Source of the DNA: Anadara kagoshimensis
Lineage: Eukaryota; Mollusca; Bivalvia; Arcoida; Arcidae
NCBI GenBank assembly: GCA_021292105.1
Contig: CM037861.1
Location: 50,556,920 to 50,620,919 of the forward strand
Length of the DNA stretch: 64,000 nucleotides
Reading direction: 5' to 3'
Shown: piece by piece, positions 3,271 through 63,690 of the stretch
Layout of the letters: the number at the start of each line of letters is the position of its first letter
How positions within the stretch are numbered: the stretch's first letter is position 1
Made by a program: the position numbers and the translations under genes
The notes under the pieces: generated by a model
Database searches by the model: none
Told to the model about the DNA's origin: nothing
Seen by the model: only the letters and a program-made list of their open reading frames with translations

Positions 3271-3305
3271 TGTTTTATTTTTCTACACTATCCCTCACTC
3301 TAAAT

Positions 3306-3486
3306 TGAAGTATAACTACTTTATAATGATAACAACGTGATTAAACACAAGTGTCGTGTACATCTGCTTTAATGGCTGAACCTCGTGTACCACTCTTGAC
3401 GTCATATAATGATGACGTAGTTATTACATCACATGATACATACATGTACAATAGAGTTATGTGCTCTTTGACCGTAATACACTACA
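3306..3486 (-). repeat. Gypsy LTR (3' LTR of the element)
   Basis: This 181-bp terminal repeat matches 7787-7967 base for base by eye. It has TG...CA ends and carries the paired motif TGACGTCA and GATGACGT. It is short for a Gypsy LTR. The open frame 3351-3566 is LTR sequence and not a gene. Confidence 0.95.
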
Positions 3487-3488
3487 TT

Positions 3489-3503
3489 CCCCCCTTTCTT
3501 AAG
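3489..3503 (-). other. Polypurine tract of the Gypsy element
   Basis: On the minus strand the purine run CTTAAGAAAGGGGGG lies 2 nt before the 3' LTR. This is the usual place for the plus-strand primer of an LTR element. Confidence 0.8.
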
Positions 3504-3770
3504 ATATATAAACCTTCTTCCAATATTAATGTCCTATACACGAATTTCAAAACAAGCATTTTTTAAAACACAATCTGAATGAAATTGAAAACTATTAACT
3601 GCAAAACTTGCTTAAAAATTAAAGTCAAATTGTTCATGTTCAACACTTTCATTAAATTGAACTTAAACACAAAGAGAAAAGAGACTTAAAGAAAATAAAC
3701 ATCAAAATGTCCTATCCCATAAAAAAGTCATTAAAACGGCTAGGAAGTTTTCTCTCTCTAGCTGGTCTTT

Positions 3771-4686: not shown

Positions 4687-5564
4687 GGGTAATGGGTGGG
4701 TTTTAATGGTTCAGGCTGGGGCATTGAACTGACTAATTGACAACCATGACAAGAACTAACATATTTTTCCACATCTTTGTCCAGTCCCGGCCACCATACC
4801 TTAGTCCGTAGTCGTCGCTTAGTACCTACTATCCCCAAGTGACCCTTGTGAGCTAGTTCTATACATTTACTCCTTAATTGCTGTGGGATAACTAGTCTTG
4901 TCCCCCTTAATAAACAAGAACCTGTCCAACATAACTGATCTCTGATAGGAAAATAACTAACGCATGATTTTCCCCATCGTGCACTAGACAATAATGATCT
5001 GACCTCCTGAATCTCGGGATCCGACTGTGAACAACTTTCAACTTCTGACAATTTAATTGCTTTGGGAGTTGCCTCCCTTGAAACGAACCCTACATACTCG
5101 TCAGTTTGCTTTATAAACCGTTTAACACTATCATCAGTTTCACTATCCGACTTTACTAACCGTGACAATGGATCGGCAATATTAGACTTGCCTGGTGAAT
5201 ACATAATTTTATACTTATATGGCATCAACTTAAGTAACCATCTTTCAATGCGAGCATTTGGTCTAGATTTAGGCCCATAAAGAAATTCCAAAGGTTTATG
5301 ATCTGTAATTAACTCAAATTCAACTCCATATAGATAAATATGAAATTTCTCGCATGCCCATACAACTGCTAAAGCCTCTTTTTCCGTAGTTGAGTACTTT
5401 TTCTCACAATCAGTCAACAACCTACTTGCATAACTTATGACCTTGGTTTCACCTTGATACTCCTGTAGTAAAACTGCACCGAGACCTACATTACTTGCAT
5501 CAGTGACTAACTGAGTGCGAGTAGCATCTAACCTGAAATAACCTAAAGTATCTGCATTACTCAA
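4659..5564 (-). pseudogene. Gypsy RNase H and zinc-binding (H2C2) region
   Basis: The frame contains LVTDASNVGLGAVLLQ and YSTTEKEALAVVWACEKF, the D and E signatures of Ty3/Gypsy RNase H, then ITDHKPLEFLYG. Further on come HKGHLGIVGTKRRLR and a CHGC pair, the HHCC zinc finger that precedes the integrase core. RNase H removes the RNA template during cDNA synthesis. This is part of the broken pol gene. Confidence 0.9.
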
Positions 5565-5657
5565 ACAATCCTTTAACTTATCAAAAGACTCTTGCTGTTC
5601 AGTACCCCATTCAAATAAACTTTCTTAGTTACCTCCTTAAAGGCTCTGATATAGTCG

Positions 5658-6401
5658 CTAAGTCAGGAATATACCTGGCACTAAAATTGACCAAAACCTA
5701 AGAAACTTCGGAGATGTCAGCCGCTTTACTCGGCGTTCTGCATTTACAATTGCCTTAACCCTGTCAGCAGTGGGACCAATGCCTCTTTTCGACAAAACGT
5801 GACCCATAAATGTGATTTTATTCATACCAAACTCGCATTTGCTCTTATTAAGTGTCAGATTTCTTTCCTTTAACCTATCCATGACCTTGCCTAATCTGAT
5901 ATCATGTTCCTCCTTATTCCTACCATGAACCACAATGTCGTCTGAAATATTCTGAACACCTTCACAATCATGAAATACCTGTGAAATGACCTGCTGATAC
6001 TTCTCAGGGGCTGAACAAATTCCAAACATCAACCTTTTATGACGAAACAAACCCTTATGAGTTACAAAGGTAGTTATCTCCCTTGAAGCCTCATCTAACT
6101 CAATTTGGTGAAAGCCATATTTAAGATCGAGTTTGCTAAAAACCTCACTTTCATTCATGTTATAGAGTATTTCGTCAACCGTCGGTATGGGGTGTCTTTC
6201 CCGTTTGATAGCATTGTTCGCCTGTCGCATGTCAACACACAGTCTGATGTCACCATTGGGTTTGGGTACACAAATAACAGGGCTTACCCATGGGGTTGGA
6301 TCATTGACTTCCTCAATAATATCCAAACTTTCTAGTTCTGCTAGTTTGTCACTAACTTTCTGTCTAAGACTGAAAGGAATTCTATACATCCTTTGAGCCA
6401 C
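5658..6401 (-). pseudogene. Gypsy reverse transcriptase region
   Basis: The frame shows the Ty3/Gypsy RT series: VICVPKPNGDIRLCVDMRQ, FSKLDLKYGFHQIELD, LMFGICSAPEKYQQ and a DD-containing catalytic segment (SDDIVVHG), then TFMGHVLSKRGI. It copies the element RNA inside virus-like particles. The spacing of motifs is normal for Gypsy. It belongs to the broken pol gene. Confidence 0.92.
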
Positions 6402-6445
6402 AGGTGTAACTGTTGTATCTATGTGTAACTTGAGCTGATAATTAT

Positions 6446-7186
6446 TTAATTTCCCAAAAACCCTTTAAAACAATCTTCATTGACAGAAAATATACCCAAT
6501 TTAAGTACCCCCAGTTTAGTGGCTGTATCTTTCCCCAACAAAGCTGGACCCCTACCCTGCATGACATAAAAATCTGATTCTATGCTTACATTACTATCCT
6601 TAAGGGAAACTTGAGCAGTAAATTTACCTAACAAATTCAGTGGTTTTTCAGAACCATATGCAAATAGTCTTTTGTCAGTTTTTTCAGACACACACTTTAT
6701 CTTATTACTTTTCAGTTTATTCCACAGTTCACTATCTATAATATTTACAGCCGCACCACTGTCAATTATAACCTCAATGTCATTTCCTCCTACTTTAATG
6801 TCTATCTGCTCATTGTTACTCTTATTGCCATTAACACTGAACGCATATTCATCCGAGTCCGACGACGGATCTACATAATTACACATATTACTTCTGCCTT
6901 TACCGCGATGTCCGCCACCGCTGGGATTCGACCCACGGGATTTAGTCTTGGTCTTACACCGGTCGGCAAAATGTCCAACATTTTTACATTTGTAACACTT
7001 CTTGTCGCGTGCGGGACATGTCGGGTCTTTCGAAACATGACCCTTCCGGCCACAACTGAAGCAAGTCTTAGCTGCCGCTGTGCTCTGTGACGTCATGCCT
7101 GTCCCTTTACCAGCGCTGAACTTACTTTTAACTTGATATAATTTTCCCGTTTCTGGGGTTGTTTCCGCTAACTCTCCCTGCAACAT
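6446..7186 (-). pseudogene. Gypsy nucleocapsid zinc knuckles and aspartic protease
   Basis: Two CCHC knuckles are visible, CFSCGRKGH...C at about residues 42-57 and CYKCKNVGHFADRC at about 64-77, which bind element RNA. The protease active site DSGA is at about residues 142-145 in VIIDSGAAVNIID, followed downstream by GPALLGKDTATKLGV, which fits the second half of a retropepsin. This region links gag to pol. It is part of a broken element. Confidence 0.92.
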
Positions 7187-7193
7187 GTGCTGT

Positions 7194-7748
7194 TCATTCC
7201 TCTCGAAATTTTTCGCTGCTATGTAACTTTTCTAAAGTCAAATTTTCAATGTCTAACAATTTCCTTCTTAATCTTTTTGACACACATTTTTCAAGTACTT
7301 GATCACGTAATTCATCATCTAAATTTGGAAAATTACACAAAACTGCTTTTTGTCTAAGTCTTGTAATGTACTGATCTACAGTCTCATTGGGCGCCTGTAA
7401 CATTGACCTGAATGCCGCCCTTTCCATCGGTATGTTAACACGTGGCTTGAAGTGATCGTTTAAAATAGCGAGTGTGACGTCATAGACAGTGTCAGTTCCT
7501 TCTGGTTCACGATCAATATTTGGCAATGAAAAATAAACATCTTGCACATCAACACCTGCTGTATGCAAAAGTAATGCTTTCTTTTGCTCTGGATCGGCAA
7601 TGCCTTTCCCCGTCACAAAGAGTGTAAATGATCGAACCCAACGGGTCCATCTTGTGCCAATGTTGTGCATTTCAATGTTTGGATTAAATGGTTTTAATGT
7701 CAAACCTTCTAATTTTACTGGCGATGGTGCCTCCGCTTCATCCCCCAT
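7194..7748 (-). CDS. Gypsy Gag, capsid-like region (fossil element)
   Basis: A 184-residue frame begins about 40 nt inside the 5' LTR boundary. It contains RWTRWVRSFTLFV and YITRLRQKAVLCNF, with a Q-rich helical pattern typical of the retrotransposon gag domain that builds the particle shell. It lies immediately upstream of the zinc-knuckle region. Position, order and motifs make the assignment firm, although Gag is poorly conserved. Confidence 0.85.
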   Translation of the reverse strand: MGDEAEAPSPVKLEGLTLKPFNPNIEMHNIGTRWTRWVRSFTLFVTGKGIADPEQKKALLLHTAGVDVQDVYFSLPNIDREPEGTDTVYDVTLAILNDHFKPRVNIPMERAAFRSMLQAPNETVDQYITRLRQKAVLCNFPNLDDELRDQVLEKCVSKRLRRKLLDIENLTLEKLHSSEKFREE

Positions 7749-7772
7749 ATTCCTGGAATTATCTTCTGATTT

Positions 7773-7786
7773 TCCTCGTCGCCAAA
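7773..7786 (-). other. Primer-binding-site candidate of the Gypsy element
   Basis: Directly inside the 5' LTR the minus strand reads TTTGGCGACGAGGA. A TGG start close to the LTR end fits pairing with the 3' CCA of a host tRNA. I cannot name the tRNA from sequence alone. Confidence 0.55.
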
Positions 7787-7967
7787 TGAAGTATAACTAC
7801 TTTATAATGATAACAACGTGATTAAACACAAGTGTCGTGTACATCTGCTTTAATGGCTGAACCTCGTGTACCACTCTTGACGTCATATAATGATGACGTA
7901 GTTATTACATCACATGATACATACATGTACAATAGAGTTATGTGCTCTTTGACCGTAATACACTACA
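7787..7967 (-). repeat. Gypsy LTR (5' LTR of the element)
   Basis: This is the second 181-bp LTR, apparently identical to 3306-3486, and it should hold the promoter for minus-strand transcription. It is followed by the target duplication TAAAT at 7968-7972. Confidence 0.95.
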
Positions 7968-7999
7968 TAAATTAAAATAACTTTTTTATTTACTTGTCA

Positions 8000-8957
8000 T
8001 TTCTTTACAAAATCGGTAAGCCAAGATACAAACATCTGGTGCTGAACAGGGATTCTGGTTATTTTGTCAAGCATTATATGGATTCCAAACAACAATATAC
8101 TGAAGATACCATCAACAAAATGTTGGAGTGTTTGATAGATAACATATTTGTTGTGTTTGGTAATATAGTTTTTAGCAAACAATCTGTATACCAATGGGTA
8201 CAAACTGTGCACCATTGCTTGCTGATTTATTTCTTTATTCTTATGAAGCAGAAATTATGCAGGTTCTTGTTAAATCTGGAGAGAAGACTGCCGCCAAATC
8301 ATTCAATTCAGCATACAGATATATAGATGATGTTCTGTCTCTTAATCCTAAATTTGAAATTAAAGACACGACACGTCTGATTCCTCAAGTTCTGCTTCAT
8401 ATTTAGACATATACATGAATTATGACGCCCACGAAAAGCTACATTTGAAACTTTATGACAAACGTTATGACTTCAATTTTTCTATTGTCAAATTTCCTTT
8501 TATATGCAGCAATATACATGCTTCTCCTGCTTATTGTGTATTTGTTTCCCAATAAATACGCTATGGTAGAGCTTGTTCCCACTACGGGGACTTTGTACAA
8601 CGAAGCACTCTGCTTGCAAACAAAGTGTTGACTCAGGTGGATTGCAAGCCTAGGCTTATCAAGGCCCTAAAAAGTTTTATGGCCGTCATCACAGTATTGT
8701 TGATAAGTTTGATGTCTCTGTGTCCAGGATTGCCCTGGATTTATTTGACGTTCTATAGTTCGATGTTCCTTCCACACAATTTTGATAACACACGTGGCGG
8801 GTGTAGCTAGCTAAACAGGAGGTGCTTACCCTTCCGGAGCACCCGGCCTCACTTCCCTGGTAGTTTACGTGTCTAACCTAACTTGTCAGTTCCAAAGTTT
8901 TTACTTTGCTTCTGGATTGTAATTCAGACATGGATTAGTATGTTTTGTTTCGGATTG
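8000..8957 (+). mobile_element. Naiad 3' half, plus strand (partner of 2312-3270)
   Basis: This plus-strand Naiad copy begins a little further 5' than its partner, with KIGKPRYKHLVLNRDSGYFVK-like coding (about 8010-8070; the motif to cite is LVLNRDSGYF). It continues through the MGTNCAPLLADLFLYSYE motif (8194-8247) and YRYIDDVLSLNP (about 8313-8346) to the stop, then the tail GGCGGGTGTAGCTAGC and an outer end TATGTTTTGTTTCGGATT. Several frameshifts and an in-frame deletion after NPKFE break it. It forms a head-to-head inverted pair with 2312-3270, with the Gypsy element between them. Confidence 0.88.
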
Positions 8958-13253: not shown

Positions 13254-15249
13254 CGCTAACACCAAGGTTTTAGTTCTGCTAAATTTATTTTAACATTTTA
13301 AAAAACATATATAAGTATATTTTTATTGAAAAACGACATGTTTCGTATTGACAATCATAGATTAAACACCTTTTTAACATCTTTGTAGTTGCCATATACT
13401 ACTTAACACGTTTTACAAAATAATATAACAAATAATTTAATGTAACACATCGGAATTAAATAATAGTAGTGAGAAATCTTTATGTATTCAAATATTGTTA
13501 TTTGCAGAGAAAAACATTGCTATAACGTATAATTATAAAAACACAATCCAACGGTCACTTGTTTTATCATGAATAGCGCTTTTAGAATATCTAAACTCGC
13601 AGGACGCAGTTTGCAATCATGCCAGTAAAAATGTCTGGATTTGATTTTCAGACATCATTACAAAAATCGGTTACAGAAGTTGGTTAGTAGTGCTAATATA
13701 TCCAACAGTGCGTTACTTTGATGTGAACTAATGTTCGTGTCCAACGCTAATAACTTTACGTTTCCTTTACAACTTAACCAAATAACCTAATATATAGACT
13801 TGAATCTGTCACTATGCCTCTCAAGTCAGCCGTTTGGCTAAAATATAATTGTGACTTAATGTTTTCGATTGATATGTTTGGCATTAAAAGGACGTAAACT
13901 CGTCATTCACAAGTTAATGATGCCCTGCAAGCTTAGATAAAAACCACCAATGTATCATTTGGAATTTTAATTGTGTTGATATATCCCTATGCGCTCAGTG
14001 ACTTACCTATTCCGAGAGGAAATTAAGAAAGAATAAAACAAACAAATCAAAGAAAACAAAATAATAAAAAAATAAAAACAATTATATAAAAAATAAAAAA
14101 AAAACTATATATAAAAATATAATAAAAAACATAACCCTTTGATTTGAACAAATAACGCACAATTTGTAGCTTTTATCTAATATCACATAATGATTAATGA
14201 ATATTAACGTTTTATTAGCGTGTTACATAATAATGTTTTTTACATTACAGTTGTCTCTTGTCGTTTAGAGAACTTTATTATTGATCTTACTGTGGGTAAT
14301 TAAAATTATCATTTTTAACACGAAGACGATTCTGAAATGTGAAAAGTCACAATGATATTGATAAACTTGCACGAAACGAATATCATTCATCCTATCTAAT
14401 ACAATAAATGCCATTTATATCATTTATATATAATCATTTTTTATTATCAACATGTTGTGCCACAAAGGACAAAATCAAACAGATTTTTAGAATAATTCGA
14501 TAGAAGTAATATTTAATAGAAAGTATCGTATGACGATTCGGGAAAATAGTTTCCGTTGGGTTTTTTTTTGGTAATAAAAGTAATTTTTCTCTTTTTTCTT
14601 TTTCATTTAAAATGTTTGCTCTTTGTCAGATTAAATTTTTCAGTTTCGGTCCTTTTACACTGTGGTAGCGACAGTGTTTCCCAAAACAAATCTGTCTCAT
14701 TTTCAAATCTGATATTTGTTTGTACTTCACGATATGTATTCCAACTTGTGCTATAGTCAGACATTGTTTAGCTAATGGGTTGAACGAGGCCTTTATTCTG
14801 TGTGCGCTGATACACAATTACTTAGTATCCCTGTTAGTTAGAAAGTATCATTGTTCACCAAGACTAGAACTAAGTACAAACCTTTCTTCTCAGACAGTTG
14901 ATGTATTGCATTTCCTTGAGGCTAATTTATCGCTGATAGTAAAACGTTAAATCATGTTTTTAATTTTTAATATTTTTAAAAAGATATTTAAAACTGGCAT
15001 AGATTCCAAAGTTGCATTATGACACGAACTAACGTGTCAAACACGATGGGATTAATCTGTTATTACAAAATATTTCAAGTTTTGCCGATTTTGACAGACA
15101 GCTGTTATAAGAGCTACGCATTACATTGTTCAAAATGTAAAATGATACATTGAAAGTGTAAATTTACTATGTTTTGTCAACTGAATTCTATGATAAAGGG
15201 GTTGTTATAGCTCGGTTATTATGAAAAAATTGCTGAATAATTTCTTTTA
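13254..15249. other. Unassigned AT-rich DNA with an A-rich simple tract
   Basis: The only structure I see is a low-complexity A-rich tract at about 14034-14131 (AATAAAAA-type). Open frames at 14556-14950 overlap on both strands and show no domain. Confidence 0.45.
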
Positions 15250-15540
15250 GAGATTAGGTAATATCATGGCTCTCAAAAAGTTTTATGACCGCTATCACAG
15301 TATTGTTGATAAGTTTGATGTTTCTGTGTCCAGGATTGCCCTGGATCTAATGGACGTCTCATAGTTCTATGTTCCTTTCACACAATTTTGATTGCACACG
15401 TAGCGGGTGTAGCTAGCTGAACAGAAGGTGCTTATCCTTACGGAGCACCCTGCATCACTTCCTTGGTGTAAGTTCACGTGTATTTTAACTTTGTTTCTGG
15501 GTTGTGATTCAGACATGAATTAGTATGTTTGTTTTTGATT
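15250..15540 (+). mobile_element. Naiad 3' fragment, well preserved
   Basis: The fragment covers the final codons (CTCAAAAAGTTTTATG, then GTATTGTTGATAAGTTTGAT), the stop at about 15362 and most of the tail, ending AGTATGTTTGTTTTTGATT at 15540. The tail lacks the block containing CTAACCTAACTTGTCAG. A second, older plus-strand tail follows 127 bp later. Confidence 0.88.
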
Positions 15541-17538: not shown

Positions 17539-18542
17539 TTTTTGTCCCCCGCCGCAACGCGGAGCGGGGACATAGAAATGCCGGGCGTCCGTCTGTCCGT
17601 CCATGTGTCCGTGTGTCCGTGCGTCCGTGTTTCCGTCCGTCACACTTTCTTGTAAGCGCTCTCATGCCTATAAATTTTGACGGATTTTCATTAAATTTAT
17701 ACCAAATGTTTATACCACTAATACCTTGGTCAAGTTCGAAAATCAGCATTGGTCGATACTTTTTGTTGGAGTTATGGGACTTTGACCACAATAATGACTC
17801 TGTTTTATCCAGCACTTGACCTTGTAAGCACTCTCATGCCTACAAATTTTGACGGATTTTCATTAAATTTATACCAAATGTTTATGCCACTAATACCTTG
17901 GTCAAGTTTGGAAATTAGCCTTGGTCGATACTTTTTGTTGGAGTTATGGGACTTTGACCCCAATAATGACTCTGTTTTATCCAAAAATTGACATTGTAAG
18001 CGCTCTCATGCCTACAAATTTTGACGGATTTTCATGAAATTTATGCCAAATGTTTATACTACTAATACCTTGGTAAAGTTTGTAAATCAGCCTTGGTCGA
18101 TACTTTTTGTTGGAGTTATGGGACTTTGACCACAATAATGACTCCATTTTATCCAAAAATTGACATTGTAAGTGCTCTCATGCCTACAAATTTTGTTTAT
18201 ACCAAATGTTTATACTACTAATACCTTGGTCAAGTTCGAAAATCAGCATTGGTCGATACTTTTTGTTGGAGTTATGGGACTTTGACCACAATAATGACTC
18301 CATTTTATCCAAAAATTGACCTTGTAAGTGCTCTCATGCCTACAAATTTTGACAGATTTTCATGAAATTTATACCAAATGTTTATACCACTAATATCTTG
18401 GTCAAGTTTGAAATGTTCCTCCCGACCTCCCCACACATTTAATTCTGAAACAGCCCTGAATGTTTGAAAATATTGCAATTTCATATACAGTATACTAGTA
18501 TACTGCTTGACCGGCGGGGGACCCAGGAATTCTATTCTTGTT
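17539..18542 (+). mobile_element. Helentron-like non-autonomous element (HINE / pearl-like), first family
   Basis: The left end has GTCCCCCGCC at 17544-17553 and the right end its inverse GGCGGGGGAC at 18513-18522, as subterminal inverted repeats. The left end also folds (CCCCGC / GCGGGG at about 17547-17568). A CCGT-rich simple tract follows at 17586-17641, then five copies of a 172-bp repeat, then a unique tail ending TATTCTTGTT. Subterminal repeats, a left microsatellite, a central minisatellite and a CTTGT 3' end in T-rich flanks fit Helentron-associated elements and the bivalve pearl class. There is no protein of its own; frames at 17522-17991 lie in the repeats. It would depend on a Rep-helicase partner elsewhere. 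Confidence 0.72.
17650..18414 (+). repeat. Central minisatellite, 172-bp period, about five units
   Basis: The phrase TTGTAAG recurs at 17650, 17822, 17994, 18166 and 18322. The steps are 172, 172, 172 and 156 bp; the shorter step reflects a deletion of about 16 bp in unit 4. Units also share GTTGGAGTTATGGGACTTTG. Confidence 0.9.
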
Positions 18543-19459: not shown

Positions 19460-20126
19460 TACAGATATGGATGGCGCTCTACCTATTAATAGTCCTAATT
19501 TGTTGAAATTTTGTGGATGTCATATATCCTGATTAGTTTGAAATAAAAGATACGTCGAATCCTACAAGTTCTGATTTATATGTAGACCAATACCTCATTC
19601 ATAACGCTAGCGTAATACTACATCTAAATGTGATGGCTTCATTTTTTCCATTGTCAACTTTGTTTTTCTTTGCACTAATAAACCTGTTCCCCCCGTTCAT
19701 GGTGTATTTCTTTCAGAATCAATACGCTACGGTAGATATTGTTCCCACTATAGAAAATTATATAACGAAGCAAGCGGCATACAAAAAAATTGTTGACACA
19801 AGGAGAGTGAATTCTTAAACTTTATCAAGGCCCACAAAAAGTTTTATGGCCTTTATCATAATATCGTTGATAAGTTTGATTTCTTTCTTCCTGGATTATC
19901 ATGGGTGTATTTGACGTCACATAGTTCAATGTTCCTTTCTATCTAAATTGTGATTATACACGTGGCGGGTGTAGCTACCTTAACAGGAGGCGCTTGCCCT
20001 TCTGGAGCACCCGGCCTTACTTTCTCTAGTGGAAATCGACGTGTTTTGCTTAACTTTCCAACGTCAAAGTATTAACCTTACCTTGAGATTATGGTTTGAA
20101 CGGGAATTGGAATATCTGTTTTGGAT
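19460..20126 (+). mobile_element. Naiad RT fragment and tail, diverged (right arm)
   Basis: It starts in the catalytic region (CTACAGATATGGATGGCG, the YRYIDD segment, mutated). It continues through TTGAAATAAAAGATACGTCG (EIKDT) and GTTTTATGGCCTTTATCAT to the tail GGCGGGTGTAGCTACCT and a decayed end at about 20126. Many changes show an old insertion. The 62-codon frame at 19630 is internal to it. Confidence 0.8.
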
Positions 20127-21310
20127 TCAGTCACATGATTTTGACGAGAGTTTGGCAGTAAGTCAAGCGTGACATGTGAAGAAAGATATGAATAAAATTC
20201 AAAATATGGTGCCGAGTTTGCAGGGTGATCGAGGAGCATTATAACAAGGTTTTAGTGTATATGTTTATAAATTAAATTCTGATTACTCTTTCCGACTTGT
20301 CGAACGAATAAACTAAGATACTATTTTTTAAAAATAAAATTAAGATTACTTAAGATCAAAACCGTGAGCATATACAAAAATATCATATTTCAATTTTGTC
20401 ATTCAACACCTCTAGTCAGCATAAGATGCAGACGTGAATTATATTACTTGTTTCAATACTTTATAATCGGTTTGAGCCACATATATATGGTAAAACACCC
20501 ACCGAATCTTAGTGAAATTAAATAGATTACAAGTCTTTTAGAGATATGAATTGTACATAAGTCAATTCTGTACGTTTAAAGAGTGGTAGAAATTTATCAA
20601 ATGCATTGATAATTCGATCCGAACTACGCTCAATTGAGTATGCAGTGTAACAAAGAATATATAATGTAATTTGCATGTTTTTCGTAACAAGTGGGATCTC
20701 ATGAATTGTTAGACATAAAAATTAAATTCTTACAAACTAAATTGTGATATTGTATCATAAAGTAGCAAATTGTTGGTCTGACCAAGAAGATAATTCCCTA
20801 CTCTTACATGAAGAGAACACTTGAACTCAGGAAAAGGGAATCGCTGGTACATTAATACAAAAATCTGAGCACCTCTATAAGAAAGTAGCTCATCACATGT
20901 TAATATCAAGTTTTAGTAAGTTTTTTTAGAATAAGCTTTGGTCTATCGTTTTACTCTGGGGTGATACTAAACATAGCAAAGGGATTGTACGTGGGAATGA
21001 CCCCCTACTGGACTGAACATATAAAACATTATGTTTCCTACGCGGTTACACAAGATGATAGCGCTGTCTTATTGGAGTGATAATCGAACCACAACAGCTG
21101 TTGTAAGATTATCCGAGACCACTCAGTTACAGAAGCCTGTAGATCACTAAGTCACCTAACACCAAAGAGAATCGCCGAAAACGTTTGTTTCTAGGTTTTG
21201 TTTTCAGTCATTTATGGTGTATATTTGAACATATCTCTGCTGGTGGATGTTTCACTGAAGATATCACAAACTCAGTAGGCAATAATTGTATTATTTTCAG
21301 AAATATAGTC
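20127..21310. other. Mostly unassigned DNA with a weak tRNA-like segment
   Basis: On the minus strand at about 21074-21131 an A-box-like TAACTGAGTGGTC is followed at tRNA spacing by a B-box-like GGTTCGATTATC, resembling a tRNA-Ser head. There is no clear body or tail, so a decayed SINE is possible but weak. Nothing else is recognisable. Confidence 0.35.
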
Positions 21311-21530
21311 CACATTTGCTGCTAGTTGAAACCGTAACTTCCTAAAAAACTAAGCTATACTCCCTCATGATAAGTATTTCCTTTGCTAAATTTGGTAAGA
21401 TTAATCTTGGTCCTTCGGGTATCTTATTCATTATTTTAATCAAAAAAATTGTTTCAAAATTTTGTTTCAAGTACTACTGATGACGAATTGTTTCTGGAAA
21501 CGGACGTCTAGTGCTGCAAAATTAAAGTCG
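21311..21530 (+). repeat. Hammerhead-bearing repeat, copy 1
   Basis: This dispersed repeat also occurs at 41395-41565 (minus) and 49715-49925 (plus). Shared blocks are TTTGCTGCTAGTTGAA (this copy and the 49.7 kb copy), TATACTCCCTCA, TTTGGTAA and, after the ribozyme, a TGTAAAATTAA-like stretch. The minus-strand frame 21467-21724 is antisense to it. It could be a metazoan retrozyme unit or the pseudo-LTR of a canonical Penelope-like element. Confidence 0.75.
21470..21515 (+). ncRNA. Type I hammerhead ribozyme, stem II degraded
   Basis: The parts in order are stem I AGTACTA, core CTGATGA, stem II (weak), GAAA, a very short stem III, the cleavage triplet GTC, and stem I partner TAGTGCT. Stem I pairs with one G-U. 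The core is intact, but stem II has a mismatch, so activity is doubtful. Confidence 0.7.
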
Positions 21531-22384
21531 TATAATATATAATATGAATAAAAAGAAAATCGTAGGTTGTTTGTTGTGTACAGTATATTTCCACAATAAT
21601 AACAGTATTTGATAATACGCTTGAGATTACAACAGTTTCCCTTATTGTTACGTTTCTGATGATCGACTGTACGTTGATTACATAACATTTTGTTAAAATA
21701 AATGTTTGATTGCATTGAGTGCATGTTATACTCTAGAATAATTCCCCCTTTTTGTATAGATAAAACAGGAAATCCGTGTCTAAATAACCCGTGCTATTTT
21801 TTCATTACTTAGTATTGGGGTTATTAAATCATATATCAATGTAAGAATCAGTAGGATATATAAGCCTAAATTACATCAATTGGCGTTCTATGCCGTCTTG
21901 GACACTTCCCGTATTTTGAATGCTATAATTATTGCTATTATGTATATTTGCGCCTCTTCTTCCTCTTGTATTAGACACATCCTTGTGTTTTATTGATTTT
22001 CACATTGTGTTTTAAATTATATAAAATTGGTAGATTTTTATAGGTTGATAGAAATTATAAAGATTGTTATGATGTATTTTGAACTATGTTTTTGTATATC
22101 CCTGGCGACAAAACATAAAATGTCATACAGTTTTCAGTGTATTTTAAAATGCTTATATCAAAGACTTATATGCCCATCATAACACATTTTGCTTCGAGTG
22201 ACATTTTTTTATTTTTTCAAATTATATTTTGTATTCCAGCCAGGTTAATAAAATATTAAAATATGTGATAAAATATTTAACTCAATGTTCTAATATCTTT
22301 ATTCATCGTACAAATTCTATCACCTTTACTTTAGGTAAACAACTTTTTCTTTGTAATTGACTACAAAACGGGAGATAATCAAGA
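21531..22384. other. Unassigned AT-rich DNA
   Basis: No gene, RNA or repeat signal was recognised. Confidence 0.45.
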
Positions 22385-25024: not shown

Positions 25025-26054
25025 TTATACGCCCGTCATATGACGGGACGTATTATGTTACGGTGCTGTCCGTCCGGGCGGGCGGGCGTCCGGGCGTCCG
25101 GGCGGGCGTCTGTTAACAATTTGTATTCCGTTCAATAGAGACCACAAACATATATGGATTCAAATGAAATTTGGTATACAGCTTTACCATGGTAATATCT
25201 TGTGCAAGTTCGAATTACAACTTTTTCGGATTATTTTTGGAGGAGTTATGCCCCTTTTTTAACTTAGAAATTTTTGTATGTATGACCATGTGGTTTCCGA
25301 TCATTAGAGCCTACAACTATTTATGGATTCAAATGAAATTTGGTATACACATTTACGATGTTAATATCTGGTGCAAGTTCGAATTACAACTTTTTCGGAT
25401 TATTTTTGGAGGAGTTATGCCCCTTTTTTAACTTAGAATTTTTTGTATGTATGACCATGTGGTTTCCGATCATTAGAGCCTACCACTATTTATGGATTCA
25501 AATGAAATTTGGTATACACATTAACGATGTTAATATCTGGTGCAAGTTCGAATTACAACTTTTTCGAATTATTTTTGGAGGAGTTATGCCCCTTTTTTAA
25601 CTTAGAAATTTTTGTATGTATGACCATGTGGTTTCCGATCATTGGAGCCTACAACTATTTATGAATTCAAATGAAATTTGGTATACACATTTATGATGTT
25701 AATATCTGGTGCAAGTTTGAATTACAACTTTTTCGGATTATTTTTGGAGGAGTTATGCCCCTGTTTTAACTTAGAAATTTTGTATGTATGGCCATGTGGT
25801 TTGTATTCCATTCAGTAGACAATACAAACATGGATTTAAATGAAATTTGTTATACAGTTACACCTTAATCATGGTAATATCTCGTGCAGATTTGAATTAC
25901 AACTTTTTTGGGTTACGAGTTATGGCCCAAACACGGAGTTGGTAATATATTTTTACATACATATATCCTAGTTGTACTTATACTTCTCAGTAAATAGTAC
26001 TACTCGATCAATATAACACGGGCGTATAATGCTCCGCTCGGCGGTGCTCTTGTT
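25025..26054 (+). mobile_element. Helentron-like non-autonomous element (HINE), second family
   Basis: Subterminal inverted repeats TATACGCCCGT (25026-25036) and ACGGGCGTATA (26018-26028) bound the element. The left end contains the perfect palindrome CCCGTCATATGACGGG (25032-25047) and a GGGCG-rich simple tract (25070-25110). Five 169-bp repeats follow, then a 3' hairpin (CCGC/GCGG near 26034-26044) and a CTCTTGTTT end. The duplicated segment at 22385 gives the empty site: a T tract interrupted without target duplication, as expected for Helentrons. No protein is encoded; frames at 25171-25600 are near-identical repeats of each other. Confidence 0.8.
25130..25900 (+). repeat. Central minisatellite, 169-bp period, about five units
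   Basis: The phrase GCAAGTT recurs at 25204, 25373, 25542 and 25711, all 169 bp apart, and a diverged unit follows at 25885. Units share TTTTTGGAGGAGTTATGCCC. The inner units are nearly identical, so they were homogenised recently. Confidence 0.92.
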
Positions 26055-28424: not shown

Positions 28425-28768
28425 ATACATATTAAGAGCTTGCTCTATATATTTTGTTTTAGAACCTACATGGATAAGTTGCTGCTAACAAATAAATTGT
28501 TGACCTAGGGATATTGCCTTCATCACAGTAATGATGATAAGTTTGAAGTCTCTGTATCCAGAAATGCCCTGGATATATTTGACATCCCACAGCTCCATGT
28601 TCCTTTTCACCGTTAAATTTTGATTACAAATTGGAGCTGCTTATCCTTTCGAAGCCCCCGGTCTCAGATCTGTGGTAGAAGTTCACGTGTTACACCAGTT
28701 TCAATTTTTTATACTTTGCTTCTGGATAATGATTCGGACATTAGTCAGTAATTTGTTTTGGTTAGTAT
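28425..28768 (+). mobile_element. Naiad RT end and tail (right arm)
   Basis: It starts near AAGAGCTTG, contains AACAAATAAATTGTTGACCT and TCTCTGTATCCAGAAATGCC, then the tail and GATTCGGACATTAGTCAG. Diverged and frameshifted. With 27700-27875 it forms an outward-facing inverted pair. Confidence 0.78.
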
Positions 28769-34154: not shown

Positions 34155-34870
34155 TTTTGTTGAAACGGAATTCTTGTTATTTTGTCAAGCATCTTATAAT
34201 TCCAAATAAAAATGTACTAAAGATACTATCAACAAATATAGTTTTTTGGTAGGTCAAAATATGTGTTGTGTTTGGTAATATAATTTTCTATCAAACAGTC
34301 GTTATTCCAATTTTCAAACAATTTGCGCCATTGCTTGCTGATTTGATTTTTTATTCACATGAAGCAGATTTATACAAAAAATTGTATAAATCTGGAAAGT
34401 AGGTTATGTAAATGCCATCTTATCTAGTGAGCTTGATATAAAAGCTACTTCTGATTCTTAATGCGTTGATTGATATTTAGACTTATACCAAAATTATGGC
34501 ACCTACAAAAGGGTATATTCGAAGCTCTATAACAAACGCGATGAATTCAGTGTCTTTTGTCAACGTTCGTTTTTTTGTAGTAATATTTCTGTCTCTCCTG
34601 CCTACGCTATATTTATTTTACAACTAATACCCTATGATAGAGCTTGTTCCCAAAACGAGATCTTTATACAACGAAACAAACTTTTTTCAAATAAATTGTT
34701 GACCTAGTGATATCAAACCTTTGGCTTATCGGGGCCCTCAAAAAGCACTATGGTCATCATCACAACATTGTTGAAAATATGAAATCTTTGTGTCCAGGAT
34801 TTCCCCTGGATAAATTTGACGTCCCATAGATGGTTTGAAAAAAACCTTTTCCACAATTTAATTCTTTCTA
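34155..34870 (+). mobile_element. Naiad reverse-transcriptase fragment, old, tail lost
   Basis: It begins at the same point as 2312-3270 (GGAATTCTTGTTATTTTGTC, the SGYFV codons). It passes GCGCCATTGCTTGCTGATTT (APLLAD) and CAAATAAATTGTTGACCTAG and ends just after TTTGACGTCCCATAG. The untranslated tail is gone or unrecognisable. Many breaks indicate age. Confidence 0.82.
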
Positions 34871-37119: not shown

Positions 37120-37465
37120 TAATAAACACAAACATATTAATCCACGTCCGAACCACAATCCAGAAGCAAAGTAAAAACTTTGAAACTGACAAGTCAGGTT
37201 AGACACTTGAACTTCTACCAGGAAAATGGGGCCGGGTGCTCCGGAAGGGTAAGAACATCCTGTTAAGCTAGCTACACCCGCCACGTGTGTATTCAAAATT
37301 GTGTGAAAGGAACATGGAACTATGAGACGTCAAATATATCCAGAGCAATCCTGGACATACAGACATCAAACCTATCAACAATACTGAGATAATTGCCATA
37401 AAACTTTTTGAGGGCATTGATAAGCCTAGGCTTGCAATATTCCTGAGTCAACAATTTATTTTTGC
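37120..37465 (-). mobile_element. Naiad 3' fragment, young
   Basis: It is close to consensus from the outer AACACAAACATATTAATCC through the full tail and stop (CTATGAGACGTC) into codons for the C-terminus, ending at GAGTCAACAATTTATTT. The two minus-strand frames at 37004-37296 are tail sequence. Confidence 0.9.
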
Positions 37466-40015: not shown

Positions 40016-41394
40016 ACCGAACATTGTGTAAACTCCATGGGTAATTAGAGCATCCAATCACACTGATTTTACAATAATTTATTTATAGTAAGCACATTTT
40101 AAATGAATTATGAGGATGACTTATGTTTGGACACAGACATCTGTTTGTATATGAAACAGATACTAGCTTTTTAAATTCATTGATGAAATTAACTTTTAAT
40201 TATTATGTCAGTACATCTTAAAATTTGCAAACACAAAAAGTACCGAGAAAAGAAGCCTATATTCTATATTAAATCGACTTTTTATTTAGTCAGATAATTG
40301 GTGTCATGTTGCTCAAAATGATAAAAAGATGTCCAAATATGTAGCTAAGTCAATTTGAGACATTACTATAAAAATCAGTTTTTGCATAATTGTCATATCT
40401 ACTATCTCTCAATGTGTATGAACAATATTAAGCATTGCCTTTTTGTGACGTGTTAGATGACACTTTCGAGTTGAATATAAAGAAAGGAGCAAAAATGAAC
40501 TATCGATTGACGTCATATACGATGTAATACAATTAAGAAATAAGATAATTTTCTAATGTCTTTATGAACTTGCAATGTATAATGGGCTGTCTCAAATTGC
40601 ATAAAAGGCAAAACCTTTGTGCAGAAATTTGATATTCTATATTGAAATTCTATATCAATATGGAAAGGAATATCAGTACAGCTAGCAAAAACTTAATTAA
40701 ATAAGTGAAATCAATAAAAAGACGGATAGAAGTATTTTCACATATAAATCGGAATCATTGAATCAAAGCGTGTTCATTAATTTACAAATTAGTTGTATCA
40801 TTAATATTTGTGAATTGATTCGTTGATTATGTACAATGAATAGTTATTTGTTGATAATCTTAATTGTAAATAAAAGATGCAATCTTAATAGAACTTTGAG
40901 CAAAATTATTGCAAACTGCAATAATTACCCAACTAATTGCCATGCGATAAACTAGCAATGCTGTAATCATGCCATGTTGTGACTTTTTTACATTCATATA
41001 ATACATTAAGCAATTATTAAAGATAATAAACAATTCTGATTATTTATTATGCCAATTATTATGGTAATCAAAAATTCGATAACATCAATTATTGTATTTC
41101 AATGCCAGAGATATTCGTTTAGATCGCAGTTGTATTTTTATAAGTTCAAACTAGAGCTTCATTATCTTAGATACAAGCTAGATACAACTTTTATGTTACG
41201 AGTGTGTCCTGTCGTATGTCTTGTTTAACTCCAATCACAGTAGTTCATCGTAATCTGTCCTTTACAACATGTCAACGAATCACAGAATAAAGTCCCTTTT
41301 ATTATGCCATGATAGGAGAATATGTTAAATCCTTGCAGATGTTCTTAAAAACTCGTGATTTGTGATATGCACATGAGCAGGTATATTACATATT
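40016..41394. other. Unassigned AT-rich DNA
   Basis: No signal recognised. Confidence 0.45.
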
Positions 41395-41565
41395 ATACCA
41401 ATCTTAATTTTACAGCACTAGACGGCCGTTTCGGAATACAATTCCTCATCAGTAGTGCTTGGACCAAAACTATGAAACCAAAAATTTTTTTTACCAAAGT
41501 AAGCTAAAGAAATGCTTTGCATGAGGGAGTATACATTAGTTTTTGAGGAATTTAACATTTTAAGT
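41395..41565 (-). repeat. Hammerhead-bearing repeat, copy 2
   Basis: Minus-strand copy of the repeat at 21311 and 49715. Reading the minus strand, TAATGTATACTCCCTCATGC is followed by TTTGGTCCAAGCACTA and then the ribozyme. This is the best-preserved ribozyme copy. Confidence 0.82.
41414..41459 (-). ncRNA. Type I hammerhead ribozyme, complete core
   Basis: On the minus strand the 46 nt read stem I AGCACTA, core CTGATGA, stem II GGAA-TTGTA-TTCC, GAAA, a minimal stem III from CGGCCG, cleavage triplet GTC, and TAGTGCT closing stem I perfectly. All core nucleotides and two full stems are present. Short stem III is typical of minimal type I hammerheads in animal retrozymes and in Penelope-like pseudo-LTRs. 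Self-cleavage would occur after GTC. I rate the fold as near certain and activity as likely but unproven. Confidence 0.92.
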
Positions 41566-42600
41566 ATCTAAGGTTTTATTTGAGTGAATAAAGGGATTAA
41601 AGACCTACGTCCTGATATTTTTATGCGAATGTACTATAGATTTTTATAACACAATAATTACGTATTACAGTTTAATTATCGAAATATAAATAATAGATTG
41701 AATATACCTAATGTTTACATACTAGACAGATAAGTTTCGCTTCATATTGAAAGAACATTCCTAAGTTGATCATTGATATACTTGATATATATTGTTCTTG
41801 TTATTTAGTCTGTTATCGTCGCAACAGTTTACACTATTTTCGGGTATAGATTCTGACGTAACATTTACTTATTAAAGGATATTTTGATTTAGAAGTGGTA
41901 AGCTAAGATGGGTAAAAGAATAGGAGTATCTTGCAGATTACGAATCTTAAAATTCGATGAAAGGGGTGTCTAAGTTATTTTATTTGCAACGGCTAGCCCG
42001 ATGATATATTATAACAGTGCATATTTGCAAAAGAAAAAGAACGAAAATAGATTCAGGATAAAAAAAATGGTTTGCGTCAACTTATAGAATACCAATTGTA
42101 AATCTTTTAAAACATTTATGTATTAAAATAATCTTGTTGCCATCTGTTATTTCGAATCATTTTAAAATATAACTTAATGCAAGGAAAATTCATTGCAATG
42201 GAAAATAAGTTGTGTGTACAACAATTGAATAACCTGATTAAGGTCTATGGGGAAAGCAATGTCAAATTAAATTATTTTGATCAATGATTTATATTTTTCT
42301 ATTTATTAATGTATCTAAGACATTAATTCAATATATATTCAAAAACCAAACCAGGATGCAAAATAGTCATGTCACGTTAAATTCCAATGTTACAAGGAAT
42401 TTAAATTTGCAAATTTTAAATATAGTAAATTTCACTTACGTTATACAACGTTTTCCCACGTAGACTATTTTCAACGTTTTCTAAAGTATGAATTTCATTA
42501 GATTTATACGATAATGTTCGGAGTTTGTTTAAATATGGAATCATAAAAATATAACAATCTTGTTTAAATAAGAATTCATTATGATATTGGAATAAAGTTG
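41566..42600. other. Unassigned AT-rich DNA
   Basis: No signal recognised. Confidence 0.45.
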
Positions 42601-42975: not shown

Positions 42976-43431
42976 TTTGTGAGCTAGAAATATGATATGA
43001 CTGATTCTTCAAGTACTGCTTTACCTTTGGACTTAAAATTTTCTATTGTCAATTTTTTCTTTCGAACAAAGGATCTGCTTCTCCTGTATATGGTGTATTT
43101 GTTTCAGAGTTAATATGCTATGGGAAAGCCTTTTCCCAATATGGGATCTTTATACATCGACACAAGCTGCTTTCAAATGAATTGATGACTCAGGAAAATA
43201 GTAAGCCTAGACTTATTAAAACCCTAAAATGTTTTATGGCCGCCATCACAATATTGTTAATAAGTATGATGCGTCTGTATACAAAATTATACAGGATATA
43301 TCTGACGTCCCATAGTTCCATTTATCATTACATTCTTAACTTTGATTTCACATGTACAATTCCCAGTTTGCTTTCAAAGGTTTAACTTTAGGATTATGAT
43401 TTGAACATGGAAGCCGTGTTTGTGATTTAAA
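42976..43431 (+). mobile_element. Naiad RT end and shortened tail (right arm)
   Basis: Coding blocks GACTGATTCTTCAAGTACTG, TATGGTGTATTTGTTTCAG and TTTTATGGCCGCCATCAC are followed by TCTGACGTCCCATAG. The tail lost its hairpin block and ends GAACATGGAAGCCGTGTTTG. Old copy; the frame 43182-43385 is internal. Confidence 0.82.
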
Positions 43432-45332: not shown

Positions 45333-45396
45333 TTTTTCGTAGCTGTATCACTACTCGTCGCACAAGCGCGACTCTTAGTGATACGGCTACGAAAAA
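45333..45396. repeat. Long foldback, 20-bp arms, abutting a Naiad fragment
   Basis: TTTTTCGTAGCTGTATCACT (45333-45352) and AGTGATACGGCTACGAAAAA (45377-45396) pair with one mismatch. The 24-nt loop holds a further GTCGC/GCGAC pair. The Naiad fragment begins within a few bases of the right arm. The minus-strand frame 45272-45526 and the plus frame 45263-45505 cross this junction and are chimeric. Confidence 0.85.
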
Positions 45397-45398
45397 CG

Positions 45399-45705
45399 GA
45401 CTTATTAAGGCCCTCAAAAAGTTTTATGGTGGTCATCACAGTATTGTTGATAAGTTTGACGTCTCTGTGTCCAGGATTGCCCTGGATATATTTGACGTCC
45501 AATAGTCTCATGTTCCTTTCACACAATTTTGATTACACACGTGGCGGGTGTAGCTAGCTTAACAAAAGGTGCTTAACTTTCCGGAGCACCTGGCCTCGCT
45601 TCCCTTGCGGAAGTTCAAGTGTCTAACCTAACCTGTCAGTTCCAAAGTTTTTACTTTGCTTTTGGAGTTTGATTCGGACATGGATATGTATGTTTGGTTT
45701 TGGTT
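45399..45705 (+). mobile_element. Naiad 3' fragment, young (right arm)
   Basis: Near-consensus from CTTATTAAGGCCCTCAAAAA through the C-terminal codons, stop (GACGTCCAATAG) and full tail to GGATATGTATGTTTGGTTTT. The three tail foldbacks are clear: AGGTGCT/AGCACCT (45567-45591), CTTCC/GGAAG (45599-45613) and CAAAGT/ACTTTG (45643-45658). With 44579-44731 it forms an outward-facing pair about 1.1 kb long. Confidence 0.92.
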
Positions 45706-49500: not shown

Positions 49501-49714
49501 AACATCCTATGCAATCTGTTATATTAGTAACATGTAATACTAATTAGGCAATTAGTTACCAATAAAACACTTATTGCAGTATGGTTTGTCTCTATAGTGA
49601 CATAATATGATCAATCTTGATTGTTCAGCATGTTTTTCATACTCAAAATTCAAATAAAAATGCGTATATATAACAGTTTTGTTTGTTCAAATGATCATAT
49701 ATATACGCTTGTCT
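46576..49714. other. Unassigned AT-rich DNA with two small structures
   Basis: A roughly 50-bp tandem duplication lies at 47117-47212 (AATAGTTATAAATAA twice). A foldback lies at 47986-48021, with CGAAAATTT-G-TTAACG against CGTTAAATTTTCG. The stretch GTAGCTAGCTAC near 49092 is a short palindrome. No gene recognised. Confidence 0.45.
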
Positions 49715-49925
49715 AAATTTGCTGCTAGTTGAATTATAAAATTCCTCAGAAACTAATGTATACTCCCTCACGCTTAATTTGGTAAAATTATTTTTGTCCC
49801 TCTGCATATATTTTTCAACATTTTAAAAAACTTTGGTTTTACAATTTTGGTCCAAGCACTAGTGCTGAGGAATTTTTTTCCGAAACAATCGTCTTGTGTT
49901 GTAAAATTAAAACCGGCATATATGT
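49715..49925 (+). repeat. Hammerhead-bearing repeat, copy 3
   Basis: Shares TTTGCTGCTAGTTGAA, TATACTCCCTCA and TTTGGTCCAAGCACTA with the other two copies, and TTGTAAAATTAAAA after the ribozyme. Confidence 0.78.
49855..49900 (+). ncRNA. Hammerhead ribozyme remnant, core mutated
   Basis: AGCACTA, then GTGCTGA where CTGATGA is expected, then stem II GGAA...TTCC, GAAA and GTC, then TTGTGTT. The altered core and weakened stem I suggest it is inactive. Confidence 0.7.
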
Positions 49926-51687
49926 AATACTACGTTTTACATCTGATCACCTACTGTATCACTTGAAAATTTCAAAAATTAACGCATATTTAGACAAAAA
50001 ATTCACTTGAAAACACACATTAGCTAAATCACGAAACATAGAAGAATATACGACTTAAACAATAAATTACATTCTCGTGGGAACATGTACCATGCTGATT
50101 TACGAATATTATCAAATTTAAAGTTTTGCATTTTGATACCCATGTATACAATGCATACTTGCATTACAGCGGCATTTCGTATGGCATTTATTAGCTTCTT
50201 TTGCTCTTTACAAAGTATGTTTCATTCGGATAATTACAGAAGTATTAGTTTTTATGCATTGATACACAAGTCTTTTCTCTAATATAAAGCATTTGTCGAA
50301 TTATTTATGCATTAGAAGACAGAAAAGATTTAGATTGTCTTTCATTTGATAAAACTGCATCTCGTATCTACAAATATTTCGCATTGTGATTGTAAACCGC
50401 CTCCTTATCGTGATTGTAAACACTTGTTTTAAATCCTTTATCTGCAAATGATATGAGATTATATAAGAAAGAAAGAACAAAATAACATTTTGATTTCTAT
50501 TAAAACTACAACAATTTTACGCATATATATAAAATGTCAAGTTAAATTTTATTGAATGTTCTACGACGCTTATTGGCATGCCGTTAGCCTTGTGTGTAAG
50601 TGTTTGAATTTTAGAGAACACATTGCAATATTTTTATAATCCCTTTTGTCTCTATAAACTTTCCCATGCAATGCTAAAGGGCCTCAACGTCACTTTTAAA
50701 ATAATTGTTTTCTTGACCGCCAGAGAGTTTACCACTGTATTTACGACGTCATCATCTGATTTAAATGTGCAAGGCGTGGCAATCATGTTTTTTCAGGAAT
50801 CATCGTCATCGTCATTGTTGAACTTTGCAAACGATCCAAATTTCACCACGTCTGTTTTTTCGAACATGTAAATGATGAATTATAGAATTAATGATTGTTC
50901 ATAGATGACGGATAGCTACCCTTGATCCAAGGTCATGTGACTTATCAAAATTTAACTGCCTATAACATTAATATCCCGATTTAGTTCGTTTAATTCTGGC
51001 ATATATGAAACATCTTGTACAATAATATCTGTTTCACCAATTTGAAGAAAATATACAAACAAATTAAAACAGGCATTGTAAAAACTAGAAAATAAACTCA
51101 ACATAACATATCAATTAAGACTATTGGATAACCATTTAGAATTCGTATGAAGTATTTAAAGAGTAATTCACCTCGCCCTCTTGGTAGTTAATGTATCGGG
51201 AAAATTTCATTTCTCTGTTATGTTATATGAAAAGATGATTTATTTTGTGTTTAACTTGGTTAGATAAGTATTGATCTTACTTAACTAATGTGTCTGATAG
51301 TCGATATCTGAACTGTGGCAATCTTTTATAAACGCCAACGTTCTTTTTACACATCGATGTCTAAATGGTAGTTTTCAACATCTAAATGATAACTTTCAAT
51401 GTCTAAATGATAGCTTTTTTGATATTTTTTTCTATTTTAATTTCAGACCACATAAATTTGCCACCGATAGGAATACGCGATATACACAAATACGAAAAAC
51501 GAACATCGATTCTCTTATGTACTTCATAGTTTGTAGCTTTCTTATAATATTTATAACAATCGATAGCAGTTTAAACAAATGCAACAAATCTATTTATTAC
51601 AAATAGTCAAATGCAAAAATGGTGATAGTTTGTATATATTTACATTTGCAATGATTTTTTTTCTCTAAAAGAGCTGCAATTAGGAAT
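49926..51687. other. Unassigned DNA; one frame of uncertain status
   Basis: The frame 50623-50871 has a less AT-biased stretch (about 50680-50870), discussed as a finding. A 22-bp repeat (TCTAAATGATAGCTTTC-like, three units) lies at 51356-51418. Nothing else seen. Confidence 0.35.
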
Positions 51688-52439
51688 TTGTCGCCAAATC
51701 ATTTAAATCCATATAAACAAACTGCACCATTGCTTGCTGATGCGTTTTTTACTCGTATGGAGCAGAATTTAAGCAGAGCTTTGTTAAATCTGGAGAGAAG
51801 ACTGTCATCAAATCATTCACTACACATACAGATATAAAGATGACGTTCTATATATTAATAGTCCTACATTTGCAGATTATATGACCGATTCTTCACGATC
51901 TGCTTTAAATTTATATATATTTACGATGCCAAAGGAAAGTAATCTTTGAAGCTATTTGACAGACGCGATAAATTTTATTTTTCTACCGTCAACTTTCCTT
52001 TTCTATACAGCAATATACTTGCTTCTTCTACTCATATTTATGATGTATTTGTCCCTTTAATAATTTAAGGTATAGCCCGATTCAACTACGGGAATTCTAT
52101 ACCACGAAGCAAGCTGTTTACAAATAAATTGTTTAATAAGGGATATTGCAGGCCTGAAATAATTTATTGCCGTCATCGCAATATCATTAATAAATATGTC
52201 TCTGTATCAAACAGTACCCTTGATATATTTGACGTCCCATAGTTTGATGTTCCATGTTCCTTTCTTTCCCAATTTTGGCGCGTGGCGGATGTAGTTAACT
52301 AAACAGGAGGTGCCTATCACTGTTGGAACACCCGGTCTCACTTCCCTAGCGGAATTTCCTATGTTTAACGTTAGTTTCAAAATGTTTACTTTGTTTTGGT
52401 ATTTTGGTTTGGGCATGAATTAGAATGCTTGTTTTTGAT
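51688..52439 (+). mobile_element. Naiad RT fragment and tail, old
   Basis: Coding blocks ACTGCACCATTGCTTGCTGA (APLLAD), ACATACAGATATAAAGATGA (RYIDD, mutated) and TTTCTACCGTCAACTTTCC are followed by the stop and tail, ending TTGTTTTTGAT at 52439. A scrap of a later segment (GTCGCCAAATCATT) precedes it out of order, so it is rearranged. The minus-strand frame 52207-52416 is antisense. Confidence 0.85.
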
Positions 52440-58499: not shown

Positions 58500-58960
58500 C
58501 CTTAACTGAGATAAAGTAGGTCACCGTTGTTTGTCTTCGTCACTATATTGACAAGAATTGTCTAGTCGTTTCTTGGATGACCTACAAATGGCTGATGTGA
58601 CAACACCACTGACATTCAATCGACATAGATACAAATATTAGCCTTATTTTATGAGTTAGATAAAATAGGGCGAAACTGTTCGTCTTCATTACTTTATCGA
58701 CATGAATTTTCTAGGCGTTTCTTGAATGACCGACAAATGGCTGACGTGACAACACCAACTGACATTCAATCGCCATAGATACAAAAATTAGCTTTATTAT
58801 ATAAGTTAGATAAAATAGGATATCGTTGTTTGTCTTCGTTACTATATTGAAATGAACTATCTAGGTGTTTCTAAGATGATTGACAAATGGCTGATGTGAC
58901 AACACCACTGACATTCAAACGCCACAGATACAAATATTAGCCTTATTATATGAGTTAGGC
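58500..58960 (+). repeat. Tandem repeat, about 150-bp period, three units
   Basis: ACAAATGGCTGATGTGACAA recurs with small changes at about 58584, 58733 and 58883. Units also share TTGTTTGTCTTCGT and GTTAGATAAAATAGG. Confidence 0.92.
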
Positions 58961-62639: not shown

Positions 62640-63690
62640 TCTGTGATTCCCACAGATAATAAAATGTCTTTCCAGATAAACATCTCTAAAATAAACTGAA
62701 GGCTATATATGTTTTAACAATGCACTGGAAATTTTTATCCTAGGCCAGGTCAAATACTATTGTCTATGTAACCTTTTGCATTGGTTTCTAAATAAAATGA
62801 TAGATGTATGTATTAAATAAGACCTTAAAGCGTTGGCCTTAGTTCTTAAATCAGGTTAAATGCCTTTCTCTATGGAACCCTTTGCATTAGTTTCTAGATA
62901 TAAAAAATAAACGAAAGATGTATAGCTTAAAACAAGACCTTAAGCCGTTGACCTCAGTTAGTGGACCAGGTCAAATGTTCCGTTCTATGTAACCCTTTGC
63001 ATTGGCCATGGTTTCTAGATAAAGATCCAAAAATAAACGAAAGATGCATCAATAAATATTGCACTAAACACATTGACCTTAGTTCTTGGATCAGGTCAAA
63101 TGCTTTTTTCTATGTAACTTTTTGAATTGGTTTCTAGATCTATAAGCATCTTAAAAAGAAAACGTCGACCATAGTTCGTGGACCAGGTTAAATGCTCCTT
63201 TCTATGTAACCCTTTCCATTGGTTTCTAGATAAGCATCTCAAAAATAAACGTAAGATTAAAATAAAACATTAACCTTTGACCTTAAGTAGTCCCTGGACC
63301 AGGACAAATGTTCTTTTCTATGTAACCCTTTGCATTGGTTTCTAGAAAAACATCTCTAAAATAAACTGAAGATATATAGAGAAGGATTGCACTAAAAAGT
63401 TGACCTTAGTTTTTGGACCAGGTCAAATGTTCTGTTCTATGTAAACCTTTGCATCGATTTCCAGATAAACATTTAAAAAATAAACTGAGTATATATAGAT
63501 TAAGATTGCACTAAATACGTTGACCTTAATTATTGGACCAGGTCAAATGTACTTTGCATTTGCATGGGTTTCAAGGTAAGAATCTCAAAAATAAACGAAA
63601 TGTTTAAATGGATAAAATGGATAAAAATTAGATTTTAAAACGTTGACCTTTGTCTGTGTTCAGGTCAAATGGTCCGTTCTGTGTAATAAC
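62640..63690 (+). repeat. Minisatellite, about 115-bp period, nine units
   Basis: CAGGTCAAAT (or a close form) recurs at 62746, 62852, 62967, 63092, 63184, 63300, 63419, 63539 and 63661. Steps run from 92 to 125 bp. Units share TTTCTATGTAACCCTTTGCA, TTGGTTTCTAGATAA and GTTGACCTTAGTT. The array is old, judged by unit divergence. Confidence 0.93.

Follow-up and report, generated by a model that had tools for sequence, protein, structure and literature searches.

A hammerhead ribozyme in a short dispersed repeat of the bivalve Anadara kagoshimensis and its resemblance to animal retrozymes

Introduction

What kind of element carried the hammerhead motif found on contig CM037861.1 of Anadara kagoshimensis? 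Two families of candidates are offered by animal genomes, and the initial annotation had named both, a retrozyme or the pseudo-LTR of a Penelope-like element (PLE). Metazoan retrozymes are described as short, non-coding and low in GC, with type I hammerheads, occurring in tandem from dimers up and expressed as circles, and their copying has been proposed to proceed via PLE or LINE enzymes (PMC7229834). In the hammerheads of PLEs, helix III is reported to be usually absent (PMC7761336, PMC6155905). The motif, its repeat and its surroundings were analyzed in the window, the whole 64-kb stretch of DNA under study.

Results

Ribozyme motif

Type I hammerhead of copy A: 41414-41459, minus strand (sequence, Rfam RF00163 below gathering, descriptor scan)
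Hammerhead of copy A with possible outer helix I: 41406-41471, minus strand (pairing retained in all three copies)

From 41459 to 41414 the minus strand reads AGCACTA-CTGATGA-GGAAT-TGT-ATTCC-GAA-AC-GGCC-GT-C-TAGTGCT. Stem I (AGCACTA/TAGTGCT, 7 bp) and stem II (GGAAT/ATTCC, 5 bp, with a three-base loop) are perfect, the core consists of CTGATGA and then GAA, and stem III is formed by two pairs (AC/GT) around a palindromic GGCC tetraloop. The cleavage triplet GTC ends at 41421, with the predicted cut between 41421 and 41420. By sequence criteria this is a type I hammerhead with a conserved core, three stems, an open-ended stem I and an NUH site. The complete 46-nt motif with perfect stems I and II reported in the initial annotation was thus recovered at exactly these coordinates, both in the sequence and with the strict descriptor.

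The strict descriptor found one site in the whole window, that of copy A. Any match occurred in 1 of 400 dinucleotide shuffles, and a match with a stem I of at least 6 and a stem II of at least 4 pairs in none of them. Rfam model RF00163 (Hammerhead_1) matched the 171-base stretch at 41415-41458 with 28.1 bits (E 2.6e-5), which falls under its gathering score of 34. Rfam searches of the whole window, at gathering and at E up to 5, both omitted the copy A hammerhead, which is assumed to result from search filters.

Outside the 46 nt, six pairs (AGTTTT/AAAATT, also given as AATTTT/AAAATT) may extend helix I across an internal loop. They are paired in all 18 cells of the three copies, so that the initial label of a minimal hammerhead may understate the motif, although this putative outer helix is weak evidence because it is AT-rich and five of its six pairs do not vary. 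Loop-loop contacts were not recognised by eye; mussel retrozyme hammerheads are also described without most of the archetypal contacts (PMC7229834).

Copies of the repeat

Repeat copy A: 41383-41577, minus strand (blastn homology 41383-41566; nhmmer 41380-41577)
Repeat copy B: 21301-21547, plus strand (nhmmer; blastn homology 21308-21545)
Repeat copy C: 49705-49934, plus strand (nhmmer; blastn homology 49711-49929)

The hammerhead belongs to a dispersed repeat of 195-247 bp and 31% GC with three clear copies in the window, detected by blastn with 1-kb queries and by an nhmmer profile built from hand-cut stretches. The two further copies that had been placed at 21470-21515 and 49855-49900 were found there. 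In blastn the three copies matched one another, and the other matches (13268, 31493, 39558) were weak, with E of 5e-4 to 0.01, and not located at reverse transcriptase (RT) pieces; six further nhmmer matches in the window all had E of 0.69-8.2. The blastn starts common to the copies agree within ~15 bp and the stops within ~2 bp, and the predicted cleavage site lies 36-38 bases from the 3' end so defined in all three. About 40 internal alignment columns of copies B and C are missing from copy A.

No ORF of at least 150 aa overlaps any copy. Short (within the 150-450 bp of retrozyme units), non-coding, low in GC and equipped with a type I hammerhead, the repeat agrees with a retrozyme unit in these features. 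A gene around copy A was considered and rejected. Among 13 stop-to-stop ORFs with at least 60 aa at 37.5-45.3 kb, 10 were compared with Pfam at E up to 0.01, and they gave only a match to LAIKA (E 0.0053) under its cut-off.

Decay and conservation

Copy B hammerhead with a full core and a weak stem II: 21470-21515, plus strand (homology to copy A)
Copy C hammerhead, decayed, with changes at two core positions: 49855-49900, plus strand (homology to copy A)

The other two copies had been described as progressively decayed. This applies to copy C, where two changes fall inside CTGATGA, but copy B retains the whole core without a mismatch and is weakened only in stem II, with 3 of 5 pairs, one a G-C to C-G swap. 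One of the copy C changes is C3 to G, which is reported to abolish hammerhead cleavage (PMC11167929). Rfam at E up to 10 gave no hammerhead match for copy B or copy C. A relaxed descriptor returned 2 matches in the window against a shuffle mean of 0.575, with 2 reached in 4 of 40 shuffles; as this count is not above chance, the copy B hammerhead is accepted through homology.

Pairwise identity was 39/46 (A-B), 37/46 (A-C) and 33/46 (B-C) inside the ribozyme and 109/147, 104/131 and 128/168, respectively, outside it. Invariant columns made up 32 of 46 in the ribozyme and 88 of 130 in the rest (Fisher p 0.86), and stronger conservation of the ribozyme than of its flanks was rejected. Since the ribozyme is conserved no better than the remaining repeat, the copies look like evenly decaying relics, and the alignment gives no hint of selection keeping the ribozyme across them. 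Private changes in the ribozyme and the rest numbered 1/46 and 15/130 for copy A, 5/46 and 15/130 for copy B, and 7/46 and 9/130 for copy C; the lower ribozyme figure of copy A is suggestive, but it was chosen as the best of three. Judged from its sequence, the copy A ribozyme may still cleave, though all three copies are probably dead as elements.

Even conservation, together with an Rfam score under the gathering cut-off, would fit an accidental origin of the hammerhead in a repeat of another kind, before its copies diverged, and copy B, being a homologue of copy A, is not independent evidence against such an origin. However, the full core is retained in two of the three copies and the shuffles yielded no match with stems of copy A length, which makes chance a highly improbable source of the motif.

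Folding

The palindromic stem III, ACGGCCGT, is self-complementary. Two strands of the copy A 46-mer fold into a double-hammerhead form at -34.5 kcal/mol, compared with -12.3 for each single 46-mer. The best single-strand fold keeps stems I and II and pairs core letters in place of stem III, and the hammerhead form of the single strand reaches -7.8 under an energy model that ignores the catalytic core. The ribozyme stretches folded mildly better than shuffles, with z of -1.98, -1.38 and -0.21 for copies A, B and C. Pairing was present in 93.3% of cells against 26.7-51.7% in slid controls, for a structure drawn from the same sequences, and covariation was matched or beaten by 173 of 500 shuffles, three sequences carrying little information. 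Strong self-pairing of the whole copies, a retrozyme trait, was not found in the decayed copies A, B and C (z 0.07, 0.81 and 0.34 as linear and -1.19, 1.20 and 0.17 as circular molecules).

Element hallmarks

Tandem or dimer units are a hallmark of retrozymes, and the initial annotation had proposed looking for them; the window holds none, only the three single copies. Likeness between the 5' ends of the copies and the sequence after GTC was within chance, with 377, 448 and 178 of 1000 random windows scoring equally. Target-site duplications beyond chance were not found either: the longest exact flank words had 4, 6 and 7 bases, and among 2000 random pairs 6 bases were reached in 1077 and 7 in 420. 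The pol III A box showed 3 mismatches in each copy, equalled by 264 of 300 random 235-mers, and the B box 3, 3 and 4, with at most 3 in 89 of 300.

These results bear on a possible SINE-like nature of the repeat, or on its being some other short element of defined extent, in which a hammerhead near the 3' end would trim a linear RNA and no circles would form. The close agreement of the blastn ends, the nearly constant distance of the cleavage site from the 3' end and the lack of tandem arrangement in the window speak for such an element. Three copies are, however, too few for fixing ends, target-site duplications were not found, and a SINE with a pol III promoter was rejected, as the A and B boxes were no better than in random 235-mers. 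Overall, we regard a SINE-like origin as unlikely. A related and similarly doubtful proposal is that a fixed-end hammerhead element spreads as dispersed monomers, its ribozyme trimming the 3' end of a linear RNA without tandem units or circles. The Sm-alpha repeats of Schistosoma mansoni are SINE-like, and the repeat studied here differs from them in having no detectable pol III boxes.

Neighboring elements

PLE-like RT fragment: 2515-3267
Truncated relatives of this fragment: 8039-8752, 15209-15361, 19507-19880, 28512-28586, 34157-34823, 37323-37460, 42994-43309, 45374-45499, 51717-52236

Many RT fragments occur in the window, which, judging from an RT motif, are probably PLE-like (or Naiad). 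Pieces of the relatives are 38-96% identical in protein to the fragment at 2515-3267, for which Pfam gave an RVT_1 match below threshold only. A Gypsy-type LTR element (3303-7968, minus strand) sits between two RT-fragment copies of opposite orientation; its two 185-bp terminal repeats are 99% identical, and zinc-knuckle, RT, RNase H and integrase zinc-binding matches fall in separate ORFs. Together with the RT fragments, the Gypsy-type pieces indicate a eukaryotic host, and the repeat types would fit an animal, perhaps a bivalve. Tandem arrays at 17649-18413 (172 bp) and 25126-25802 (169 bp) each directly follow a CGTCCG-type simple repeat, a layout that, we assume, recalls Helitron-type central repeats. 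Further arrays lie at 58509-58958 (149-bp units) and 63159-63555 (119-bp units).

The abundance of PLE-like RT fragments raises the question of whether the repeat is a detached pseudo-LTR of a canonical PLE carrying its usual hammerhead. PLEs are described as carrying type I hammerheads, some mapped to pseudo-LTRs (PMC7761336, PMC11167929, PMC6155905), and thousands of minimal type I motifs, mostly dispersed in non-coding DNA, have been described (PMC7761336); the unrecognised loop-loop contacts would also agree. Yet no PLE-like RT piece adjoins copies A, B or C by tblastn (one 251-aa window-derived query, E up to 1e-3) or blastn. The nearest tblastn matches lie ~1.4 kb from copy A (on the other strand), 1.4 kb from copy B and 1.8 kb from copy C, so that, with RT alone sought, none of the three copies is joined to an RT ORF as a Penelope pseudo-LTR would be. 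Nor do the blastn matches of the copies, one another and weak ones away from RT pieces, lead to an RT. The motif also has a two-pair helix III with a GGCC loop, a helix from which PLE hammerheads are, in the literature's word, "usually" free (PMC7761336, PMC6155905). A pseudo-LTR is accordingly judged an improbable source of the repeat.

The pattern for the repeat body was absent from IMG/VR and GTDB contigs, patterns for its ribozyme were absent from the viral and prokaryotic collections searched, and no relatives of the RT fragment were confirmed in IMG/VR; as the sequences in such collections come from viruses and prokaryotes, the absence of relatives of an animal repeat says little. In one 136-kb IMG/VR contig a site (L001:966-1000) fits a general hammerhead pattern; the contig looks unrelated, and Rfam at E up to 1 reported nothing over the 1395-base locus.

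Discussion

The best explanation, held with somewhat more confidence than doubt, is that the repeat is left over from a mobile element of the animal non-LTR retrozyme type, short, AT-rich and non-coding. The initial retroelement reading holds for a dispersed repeat of mobile-element type with a type I hammerhead, and helix III and the lack of an adjoining RT piece favor its retrozyme side over the Penelope pseudo-LTR. The repeat most likely works like a retrozyme and is not firmly classed as one: as neither tandem units (in the window) nor target-site duplications, a strongly self-paired RNA or a Penelope RT next to a copy were found, membership is unproven. The roughly equal ends of all three copies also count against a retrozyme, as circle-derived copies might be permuted.

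The retrozyme-like reading starts from the motif, the three copies with roughly common ends and the two-strand fold, all observed here. By analogy with the literature, transcripts of two or more units would have been cut at GTC by the hammerhead in the element's active days. Through the palindromic stem III, two copies could have joined as a double hammerhead. Circularisation of the unit RNA would have followed, probably by a host tRNA ligase, and the circle would have been copied back into the genome in trans by the reverse transcriptase of another element, steps that we infer from published systems.

This kind of feature is already known from animal genomes, whose hammerhead-bearing repeats are extended here by one probable fossil lineage. 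Active copies, if the host has any, would provide a further natural source of small circular RNA made by a ribozyme, and the single-copy layout would test the need for tandem units in movement.

Comparison with known systems

The minimal type I hammerheads of PLEs and Terminons (PMC7761336, PMC6155905, PMC11167929) are of the same type and also dispersed in non-coding DNA, with dimers possible. In contrast to the present motif, helix III is usually missing from them, and some lie at pseudo-LTRs beside an RT ORF; neither condition is seen here. The Sm-alpha hammerhead repeats of Schistosoma mansoni, likened by description, are also short non-autonomous repeats with a type I hammerhead (PMC6155905).

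The metazoan non-LTR retrozymes of coral, mussel and axolotl (Cervera and de la Pena 2020, PMC7229834) differ from the repeat of the window in that the latter is single-copy, without tandem units, target-site duplications or strong self-pairing. Mussel retrozyme units are given as ~350-390 bp in the same source, compared with 195-247 bp here. Shared with these retrozymes are the type I hammerhead, the short non-coding AT-rich unit and the co-occurrence with PLE-like RT fragments. A two-pair helix III closed by a tetraloop, as in copy A, is described there for one axolotl retrozyme hammerhead, which is called similar to invertebrate hammerheads.
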